Of a stretch of 41,993 nt of DNA, positions 32,182 to 41,993 are shown one piece after another (within the stretch, counting starts at the first letter, position 1; every line of letters starts with the position of its first letter). The stretch is from the NCBI GenBank assembly GCA_021647245.1, contig JAKIVC010000027.1:1-41993 (forward strand). Reading direction: 5' to 3'. The DNA comes from Gammaproteobacteria bacterium. GTDB taxonomy: Bacteria > Pseudomonadota > Gammaproteobacteria > RBG-16-57-12. The notes below the pieces were generated by a model. The model worked only from the letters and a program-made list of their open reading frames with translations, searched no databases and had not been told where the DNA came from. Made by a program: the position numbers and the translations under genes.

Positions 32182-32931
32182 GTGTCAGCAAATTTTCCAG
32201 TAGTAAAGGGAGTGCCCAGTACGCGTTATATTGCAATCGACGCAGCGCGTGGTGTGGCGATCGTCATGATGGTTGTTTTTCATTTTACCTATGACTTAAA
32301 CCACTTCAATTACCTTGAAGTGGACTTTTACCGTGACCCATTTTGGCTCAACTTCCGCACCCTGATTGTGACTTTTTTTCTCTGTCTAGTGGGCATTAGC
32401 CTTCAATTGGCGGCAGGGAAGGGGCTTAACCTACGCCGCTATGGCACTCGATTGATGTTATTGGTGGGTGCAGCGGGGCTGGTTAGCTTTGGCAGCTACC
32501 TGGTGTTTCCAGACAAAGTGATTCTATTTGGTATTTTACACTTTATCGCTCTTGCAAGCGTTATTGGCTTGCTGTTTCGACGCTTTTACTGGATGAACCT
32601 ACTGCTGGGGGTATTGTTGATAGCGACAGCAAACCTATTCCAGCATGAGTGGTTCAATGCCCCCGCCCTACACTGGTTTGGCTTGGTGACCCAAGGGCCG
32701 CGTACCGTGGATTATGTGCCGTTTCTTCCCTGGTTTGGTGTTGTTCTACTGGGCATGTTCCTAGGGCGTTTGATTGAAAAATACCCGTTGTTGAGTACCA
32801 CCTCACAGCCGCGTAACGGCTTGGTTCGCTCTCTTGCGTTAGGTGGTCGTCACAGTCTGTTGATCTATCTTATCCACCAGCCTCTGCTATTCGCGGGATT
32901 CTATCTGGTGATGCTCCTTCATTCATTGTAA
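32182..32931 (+). CDS. DUF1624 / heparan-glucosaminide N-acetyltransferase-like membrane protein
   Basis: A 249-residue inner-membrane protein with about seven hydrophobic segments. The N-terminal AIDAARGVAIVMMVVFHFTYDL is the signature of DUF1624/HGSNAT_cat proteins, where the His is thought to take part in acyl transfer. FLCLVGISLQLAAGKG and a C-terminal GRHSLLIYLIHQPLLF also fit. The substrate is unknown. The start is GTG at 32182 with only a GGTGAG-like site upstream. It follows the His-rich gene by 21 bases and could be cotranscribed, but no link with copper is known. Confidence 0.82.
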   Translation: MSANFPVVKGVPSTRYIAIDAARGVAIVMMVVFHFTYDLNHFNYLEVDFYRDPFWLNFRTLIVTFFLCLVGISLQLAAGKGLNLRRYGTRLMLLVGAAGLVSFGSYLVFPDKVILFGILHFIALASVIGLLFRRFYWMNLLLGVLLIATANLFQHEWFNAPALHWFGLVTQGPRTVDYVPFLPWFGVVLLGMFLGRLIEKYPLLSTTSQPRNGLVRSLALGGRHSLLIYLIHQPLLFAGFYLVMLLHSL

Positions 32932-33209: not shown

Positions 33210-33376
33210 CTAGGAGGCTGTCGGACTCAGGGTGAATCTACTGCGGAAAAGCCATTCAGGCCCATTTCTCCGATCATTTTCGTTGAATATGCTCAATATT
33301 CGCCTCAAACGATCAAAAAAATGGACTCAAAATGGCTTTCCCTCGCTACGATCACCTAAGCCCGACAGCCTCCTAG
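33210..33376. mobile_element. 167-bp foldback (MITE-like) element
   Basis: The ends CTAGGAGGCTGTCGG (33210-33224) and CCGACAGCCTCCTAG (33362-33376) are perfect 15-base inverted repeats. The interior is also near-palindromic about a centre at 33293 (GAATAT-GCTCA-ATATTC). GGAAAAGCCATT pairs with AATGGCTTTCC, CCATTT with AAATGG, and GATC with GATC at mirrored positions. No coding capacity exists. The palindromic CTAG at both outer ends could be a target duplication. Confidence 0.75.
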
Positions 33377-33437: not shown

Positions 33438-34922
33438 CTATAGCTCAAACTCGCCGACCATGTTGCGCCAATACTGGTCATCACTGTCGAATAGGCGGTT
33501 GACTTCGGCCGGGCCCCAGCTTCCGGCTGCGTAGGTGTGAATGAAGTCACGTTCCATTGACCAGACTTTGAGGATTGGGTCGACGATTTTCCAGGCCCAG
33601 TTCACTTCGTCGTAGCGAAGGAATAGGGTGCTGTCACCCTCGATTATATCGAGCAGCAGCGCTTCATAGGCATCCAGTTTGACATCACTGGCCCGGCAGT
33701 AGCTGGCATCCATCTGGGTGGTGCGAATTTTCATCTCAAGGCCAGGTTCTTTAACTTGAACCACAAAGCGCAGGCACTCATTAGGTTGTATGCCGAGTAC
33801 TAACCAGTTGGGTTCAAAACGCTGAATTTGGGTCTCTTGAAAAAGCTGTTGGGGTGGTCGCTTAAAGCGAATGCTGATGACAGAGCTGTTTTGTGCCATC
33901 CGTTTGCCGGTGCGCAGGTAGAAGGGGACTCCTTTCCAGCGCCAGTTGTCCACATAGAGTTTTAGGGCAGCATAGGTTTCGGTGGAGCTGTTTTTGGGTA
34001 CATTAGACTCCTCTAGGTAGCTGCTTACCTTTTCGCCATCCACTGTTCCGTGTGTGTATTGGGCGCGGAATGAGTGGGCGTGGGCGGCGTGTTGTGGTAT
34101 TTGGCGTACTGATTTCAGTACTTTTACTTTTTCGTCGCGTACTGATTCTGCATCCAGTGTGGCGGGGGGTTCCATGGCTACCAGTGTCATTAACTGCATA
34201 AGGTGGCTCTGGATCATGTCACGCATGGCACCCGCGCCGTCGTAGTAGTCAGCACGGTTTTCGATGCCTTTCGATTCTGAGTGGGTAATCTGTACATGGT
34301 CGATGTAGTTGCGGTTCCACAGTGGCTCTAGCAGGATGTTGGCAAAGCGGAATGCTAATACATTTTGTACAGTGCCTTTTCCGAGGTAGTGATCGATTCG
34401 GTAAATCTGGCTTTCGCTAAAATCTTTATGCATGCGCTGGTCGAGCATCTGTGCGCTTTCTAGATCATAGCCAAACGGTTTTTCGACAACAATGCGCCGC
34501 CAGCCACTCTCTTCGCTATTGAGCCCCGCATCTGCCAGGTATTGGCTGACGGTGCCGAATTCAGAGGGGCGTATTGCCATGTAGAAGGCGATATTGTCGG
34601 GCAGGTCGCTATCCTCAGCGATGAGTTTTTTTAGCTTGTGGTAGGCATCCGGATTGGTCAGATCTCCTTGAAAATAGCACAGGCGTTGGCAAAAATTTGC
34701 GAATACCTTTTCGTTAATGCCGCCTCGTGCTTTGTTTTCGAGATAGCCTTTTACCTGTTTACGCCAGATAGTGTTATCCCACTCACGACGACCAATGGCG
34801 AGAATTTTCAGGCCATCGGGTAGTTTTCCGGCCTCTTCCAAGTGGTAGAGGGCGGGTAGTAATTTAATCTGCGAAAGGTTGCCGGTGGCACCAAAAATCA
34901 CAAAAGTGCATGGTTCGATCAT
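33438..34922 (-). CDS. zwf: Glucose-6-phosphate dehydrogenase
   Basis: Oxidises glucose 6-phosphate to 6-phosphogluconolactone with NAD(P)+. The 494-residue protein starts [20 protein letters not shown] (nucleotide-binding loop). It has the EKPFG motif (Glu147-Lys148) and the substrate site [13 protein letters not shown] with His178 and Lys182. The later [20 protein letters not shown] block is typical. An AGGAGAT ribosome binding site precedes the ATG. It lies 12 bases downstream of gnd on the same strand, so the two oxidative pentose-phosphate dehydrogenases form an operon with gnd first. No lactonase gene is adjacent. Confidence 0.97.
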
Positions 34923-41461: not shown

Positions 41462-41869
41462 ATGGCTACACAGGAGTTTGATTTTGCCACGGGTAAGGTG
41501 GTGGATGTGGCTTGTCGGCAGCTGATGGTTCTGAGTGGCTGTGAAGAGACCAGCGAGCGGGTTGAGACGTATGCAAGGGGGAACCGCTATAAGTTTTTGG
41601 GGAAATCAGCTGATTTACGCCAAGCGCTTGAGTTGGTGAGAAAATTTAAGCGAGGCCTGTTTTTTCTGGATGCGGATACCCAGGGGGTGGATGCACTCTC
41701 CTTAATCAAGGTTTTAACTGATAAAGCACCGTTGTTTAAGGTGATTTTGATGAGCCAATCACCGACGAAAGCGCTGTTAAGTGAGGGGCGTGAAGCGGGC
41801 GCGGCGGGTTTTTTGGCAAAGCCACTGAAGATTGATGTCATGGAGAAGACCATAAAGCAGATCACCTAG
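41462..41869 (+). CDS. Stand-alone receiver-like domain protein (degenerate)
   Basis: A 135-residue protein whose second half matches a response-regulator receiver domain. Asp70 in GLFFLDADTQG is the likely phospho-acceptor. VILMSQS supplies the Ser/Thr (Ser98), and GAAGFLAKPL carries the conserved Lys120. The usual acidic pair at the end of the first strand is missing: the strand LMVLSG is followed by CEETS. No output domain is present. It may be a CheY-like adaptor, or a pseudo-receiver that is not phosphorylated normally. It is followed at once by a long inverted repeat. Confidence 0.7.
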   Translation: MATQEFDFATGKVVDVACRQLMVLSGCEETSERVETYARGNRYKFLGKSADLRQALELVRKFKRGLFFLDADTQGVDALSLIKVLTDKAPLFKVILMSQSPTKALLSEGREAGAAGFLAKPLKIDVMEKTIKQIT

Positions 41870-41940
41870 ACTTTATGTATTAACTCGCCACCAGCTTAAT
41901 TATCCATAATATGGATTGTTGGCGAGTAAATACATAAAGT
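41870..41940. repeat. Long inverted repeat directly after the receiver gene
   Basis: The 21-base arm at 41870-41890 (begins ACTTTATGTATT) is the reverse complement of 41920-41940 (ends AATACATAAAGT) with one mismatch. A second, inner palindrome ATCCATAATATGGAT lies at 41902-41916. No T-run follows. It could act as a terminator, an mRNA-stabilising hairpin or a small mobile repeat. Confidence 0.75.
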
Positions 41941-41957
41941 CCGATGGTATTAGACAA

Positions 41958-41993
41958 TCATTATTCCAGAAAAAAAGACTTCTGGAATAATGA
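41958..41993. repeat. Perfect 14-bp inverted repeat at window end
   Basis: TCATTATTCCAGAA (41958-41971) and TTCTGGAATAATGA (41980-41993) are perfect reverse complements around an A-rich eight-base loop. It reaches the window edge, so it may be longer. The minus strand has a run of seven T in the loop, which is not a standard terminator layout. Confidence 0.7.

Follow-up and report, generated by a model that had tools for sequence, protein, structure and literature searches.

Positions 33210-33376 of the window, the 41,993-nucleotide stretch of DNA from a Gammaproteobacteria bacterium analysed here, fold back on themselves between two genes, which raises the question of whether this sequence is a mobile element or a structured RNA belonging to its locus. 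The preliminary description read these 167 bp as a MITE or a large REP-like foldback, and held that a single copy conserved in place across relatives would point to a local structured RNA or terminator.

Structure of the locus and copies in the source genome

The stretch is short, non-coding and without a transposase gene. As described before, it lies between two genes; they converge on it, and we take them from reading the ORFs, without a database search, to be a DUF1624-like ORF (32182-32931, plus strand) and zwf (33438-34922, minus strand). The perfect 15-bp inverted repeat that had been noted, CTAGGAGGCTGTCGG / CCGACAGCCTCCTAG, indeed bounds it; the terminal inverted repeat of the MITE copy reaches 22 bp at 91%, and inward of it a second arm pair extends over 26 nt at 73%. 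"Near-palindromic throughout" was apt in that self-complementarity over the entire element is 72% and folding is strong against dinucleotide shuffles, both as DNA (z = -6.4) and as RNA (z = -9.2 and -13.0, one per strand), but the palindrome is imperfect and asymmetric. The differing left and right subterminal motifs give the element a polarity. The features are as follows.

33210-33376, no strand: MITE copy with both CTAG target copies, 167 bp (about 38 copies in its own genome and a covariance model match)
33214-33372, no strand: element proper, 159 bp (comparison of filled and empty sites puts CTAG outside the inserted unit)
33210-33213, no strand: left copy of the target CTAG (CTAG occurs once at each of four distinct paralogous empty sites and twice in the filled site)
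33373-33376, no strand: right copy of the target CTAG (filled and empty sites compared)
33214-33231, plus strand: left terminal inverted repeat, GAGGCTGTCGGACTCAGG, resembling the IS1182-family ends [G/C]AG[C/T]CTGTCGGACTT
33355-33372, minus strand: right terminal inverted repeat, GAGGCTGTCGGGCTTAGG in minus-strand reading (inverted-repeat search)
33237-33246, plus strand: left subterminal motif, TCTACTGCGG, kept family-wide (consensus of alignment A1, 28 elements)
33341-33351, minus strand: right subterminal motif, TCGTAGCGAGG, unlike the left one and kept family-wide (A1 consensus)
33280-33309, no strand: apical hairpin region, TCGTTGAATAT...ATATTCGCCTCAAA (near-invariant A1 columns; helix 6)

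The covariance model match extends over 1-167 with an E-value of 3e-37, for a model that itself includes this copy. The source genome of the window, G000 (2.57 Mb, 64 contigs), holds at least 38 full or near-full copies on many contigs at 91-100% identity, with 40 of 74 candidates scored, which bears out the earlier surmise of many genomic copies. Several contigs break inside the element, and solo ends without a partner also occur. At 35796-35865 of contig C14 lies a shortened version of about 70 bp that has both ends but lacks most of the interior. When 30 copies from G000 were aligned, CTAG was found on both flanks of 15 and was absent on one or both sides of the other 15, eight of which have a second repeat on the missing side.

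The target was defined at one locus, L008, where the copy is inserted in another repeat and has CTAG on each side. The empty counterparts of this site read CAGAATCGCTGA-CTAG-GCAATATAAG, also given as GAATCGCTGA-CTAG-GCAATATAAG, with a single CTAG; six matches amount to four distinct places, three loci overlapping. A single CTAG in the empty state against CTAG...CTAG in the filled state therefore identifies CTAG as a 4-bp target duplication. The element proper is thus 159 bp, and the 167 bp originally described are repeat-bounded but include the duplicated target in their outer CTAGs. Clean empty counterparts were obtained for this one filled site and are paralogous; an orthologous empty site, sought around zwf in relatives, was not found because gene order there is insufficiently conserved. 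The proposal that the outer CTAG is the target duplication is supported by the L008 site with its paralogous counterparts and by the 15 copies with CTAG on both flanks.

Two congeners, G001 and G002, both have zwf, but the 4-kb loci surrounding it contain no end-like sequence; the element is thus not conserved in place, and it is not single-copy either. The MITE reading of the preliminary description is supported by the dispersed copies, the target duplication with its empty-site counterpart, the terminal inverted repeats in a short and geneless body, the absence in congeners and the IS-family-like ends. We regard the identity of the element as a MITE as firm.

By simple ORF calling, none of the 30 copies interrupts a long gene; six fall inside short ORFs (92-172 aa) that may not be real genes, and gene orientation around the 30 copies has no clear bias. 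In a few copies CTAG supplies the TAG of an adjacent ORF's stop codon, with an overlap of 2-3 bases. Insertion at a stop codon could restore the stop in this way, which would fit the intergenic positions of the copies.

Two other dispersed repeats occur beside the element. The window ends (41866-41993, the contig end) inside R2, which has a long form of 148 bp and a short palindromic form of about 71 bp (ACTTTATGTATTAACTCGCC...GGCGAGTAAATACATAAAGT) with CTAG on both sides, and which is found at about 19 places in G000. In most of its copies this long form adjoins the MITE at the same base (..CATATC followed by AGGAGGCTG), at either MITE end; such junctions are found at L006, L014, L015, L017, L018, L023, L024 and L027, and at C35:7472, C46:2311 and C17:22423. 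R2 may target the MITE end, or the pair may move together. The third repeat, R3, has the end AGGGTTGATGTA beside CTAG (L008, L013, L021, L057, L061, L062) and was the source of the empty sites in the L008 comparison.

Distribution and folding of the family

We searched 398 genomes sampled from the phylum with a covariance model based on 28 elements. Full-length relatives were found in 52 of them; eight of these belong to the window's class and 44 to a different one, the latter nearly all from one family; the matches listed span the entire model, with lengths near 167 bp. One copy resides on a conjugative Pseudomonas plasmid. Phage records and E. coli genomes gave no match to the element, and in viral contigs one exact end was matched. 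A second end type, CTGTCCGAGAATAG, replaces CTGTCGGACTTAG on the same core at L042 (1242-1408), at L034, on plasmid NZ_CP034782.1 (140983-141149) and at many loci of the other class; no IS with the CTGTCCGAGAATAG end was seen.

In the alignment of the 28 elements, from which the structure itself was derived and for which the shuffle control takes the elements as unrelated, standard pairs make up 94.3% of the paired cells versus 78.6% after shuffling. Both sides changed in 39 of the 56 pairs, and the pairing signal was lost when the partner was slid by one base. The analysis was repeated on 29 elements outside the model, a set that the model itself had retrieved and that was folded from its own alignment, hence not fully blind, with 93.8% versus 73.2% standard pairs and changes on both sides in 40 of 57 pairs. 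One and the same strand has the lower minimum free energy in 27 of the 28 elements and in all 29 of the second set (56 of 57). On this better-folding strand, G-U exceeds A-C by 45 to 16 among the pairs common to the folds of both strands, and a G-U pair at the right subterminal motif (33341-33351) is conserved in 46 of the 57. Both subterminal motifs are kept across the 28-element alignment while differing from each other. Among the G000 copies, from which the pairing was predicted for this comparison, paired columns inside the terminal repeats vary by 1.0% and unpaired ones by 4.4%; the recent mutations there comprise 18 G-U versus 7 A-C cells, too few and non-independent to count as evidence of a strand bias. 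A scan for T-run terminators found none.

These sequence comparisons indicate that the folded interior is likely under constraint, which may act via RNA, via single-stranded DNA, via a functionless arm-to-arm correction or via an asymmetry in protein binding. A hairpin kept by paired changes in two classes, together with a consistent better-folding strand, suggests that one strand probably works in folded form, either as single-stranded DNA or as RNA, the latter for example within the 3' ends of adjacent transcripts. The RNA role is the one we prefer, given the preference for G-U pairs on one strand.

The paired changes could also be purely mutational. Template switching in quasi-palindromes would copy one arm onto the other and renew the hairpin without any function, for which the arms are suitably long and imperfect; moreover, a TTAG-to-TGAG change in G000 affects both arms of certain copies but a single arm of others. 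Template switching alone, however, predicts neither the same better-folding strand in 56 of 57 elements nor the kept, differing motifs on the left and right, and we consider it an unlikely account of the interior, albeit one with an appreciable chance. It is also rather doubtful that the hairpin is needed as DNA, in the form of a cruciform or a single strand recognised by the transposase. The terminal helix is well kept, and IS1272, which is placed in the IS1182 family, reportedly uses stem-loops as targets and replaces them (PMC5678879), a family link to structure-targeting transposition that makes such a role conceivable; but in IS copies of the same subgroup no more than ends of about 19 bp are seen, and a double-strand cruciform predicts no strand preference. 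Both estimates concern the interior only and not the identity of the MITE.

Returning to a strand that works folded, it is quite possible, although we propose it tentatively, that this is a mobile family in at least two classes whose sole cargo would be a structured RNA or single-stranded DNA, strand-specific and under selection, its core kept while the terminal repeats switched type (CTGTCGGACTTAG versus CTGTCCGAGAATAG).

The candidate transposase

Pfam and NCBIfam identified one intact IS1182-family IS in G000, with a 453-aa transposase (NF033551, 375 bits versus a cut-off of 270). Its ends, CTAGCAGCCTGTCGGACTT (pattern CTAGCAGCCTGTCGG[A/G]CTT), are identical to the MITE end at 17 of 19 positions and differ at two; an IS with identical ends was not found within the same genome. 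A 1,569-bp IS in another genome (G343) carries CTAGGAGCCTGTCGGACTT at both ends, exactly the majority end of the MITE family. Relatives of the G000 transposase were located at ten loci in public genomes, which have the same end pattern wherever both ends are present. Both ends were read in 18 IS1182 elements, among them ISAzo2 and a further five plasmid-borne ones, and are of the type CTAG[G/C]AG[C/T]CTGTCGG, with a single mismatch at one end of the G093 element. The method used for IS1182 ends found none in the plasmid element L240, and among more divergent IS1182 elements (42-45% identity) CTAGGAG is kept but the sequence after it differs. A control search with the reversed pattern gave zero matches, versus 43 of 369 class genomes with the true pattern.

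An IS bearing this genome's own end, GGAGGCTGTCGG, was sought and not found, and the parent is therefore assigned at the level of the family. The earlier suggestion to look for an IS with the same ends thus led to the IS1182 family, whose ends match, but to none with exactly GAGGCTGTCGG. Close transposases (E <= 1e-60) were found in 7 of the 369 class genomes versus 43 with MITE ends, so that most carriers sampled have no detected close partner. The interior of the MITE is unlike the ends of the IS elements examined; an origin from a known IS by mere internal deletion is therefore not supported.

Other candidates within G000 were rejected. The other transposases examined there, one of DDE_Tnp_1_4 type (L047) and a second DDE_Tnp_1 (L048), are without such ends. 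At 52456-52469 of contig C24, a solo end has the exact MITE end sequence, with ATG GCC GCC AAA TTT ATT about 80 bases in. It could be a decayed parent IS, but beyond the end, similarity to known IS ends was no better than shuffled, and there is no intact transposase ORF.

From the matching ends of the 18 IS1182 elements and of the G343 IS, we infer that the element is probably mobilised in trans by an IS1182 transposase. A separate IS would encode the DDE transposase of this family, which would bind the inverted repeats of the MITE, mobilise the element and join it to another CTAG, duplicating those 4 bases. Another CTAG-targeting transposase, such as one of the IS5 group, might move the same element, as proposed for MITEPsy1, which likewise duplicates CTAG and has ends nearly identical to those of ISPsy2 (PMC3189936). 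We find this very improbable, given that all two-ended IS1182 elements checked agree with the MITE ends over 17-19 bases and that the MITEPsy1 ends, GGAAGGTCTGAAAAAGCC, differ. A structured RNA gene or terminator that stays in place and is repeated by chance would suit the strong covariation and strand polarity, but dozens of copies at unrelated sites, the CTAG duplication, the IS1182-type ends, the absence from the zwf site in congeners and the lack of a T-run terminator in the scan leave it scarcely credible.

The account that we consider highly probable as a whole is that of a geneless MITE in a duplicated CTAG, with an IS1182-family transposase as its presumed mover and an interior fold that is probably more than filler. 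Of the two options originally opposed, mobile element or structured RNA, the first holds, but the opposition may be too strict, the base-pair covariation being strong as well.

Comparison with known systems

The family appears to be undescribed, as judged by Rfam and the literature searched: five loci gave no Rfam covariance model match up to E = 1, and a literature search, with most subscription journals outside its scope, found no paper with these ends. The element works like other bacterial MITEs, such as MITEPsy1, ERIC and Correia elements.

IS1182 insertion sequences of the ISAzo2 type share with it the CTAG on both sides and the ends [G/C]AG[C/T]CTGTCGGACT, but they are about 1.55-1.65 kb long and carry a transposase gene, and the examined IS ends are without the MITE interior. 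MITEPsy1 from Pseudomonas syringae is similarly small and geneless with a CTAG or YTAA target duplication; its transposition was observed, and its authors tied it to ISPsy2 / IS5 (PMC3189936). It differs in its length of 100 bp and in its ends, which rule out identity. YPAL / RU-2 from Yersinia is likewise intergenic, palindromic and about 168 bp long, whereas its inverted repeats are internal and its target duplications are 3-26 bp (PMC2229807, PMC2759123). Identity with the published 168-nt RU-2 was rejected by eye, as the printed ttcagactgctgac... is without the CTAGGAG...CTGTCGG ends, and by the differing target duplications. ERIC and Correia/NEMIS are also short repeats with transcripts that fold into long hairpins, but they have TA-type termini (PMC2229807); RNase III cleaves Correia RNA (PMC10969869).

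In the present family, an ERIC-like fold is accompanied by a candidate family of transposases, a defined target site and numerous diverged copies. To our knowledge (see also PMC2229807), structured mobile repeats of the ERIC type are largely without a known mover or a known reason for their fold; with the candidate transposase, the target and the diverged copies at hand, the questions of what moves such an element and why its fold is kept both become testable.
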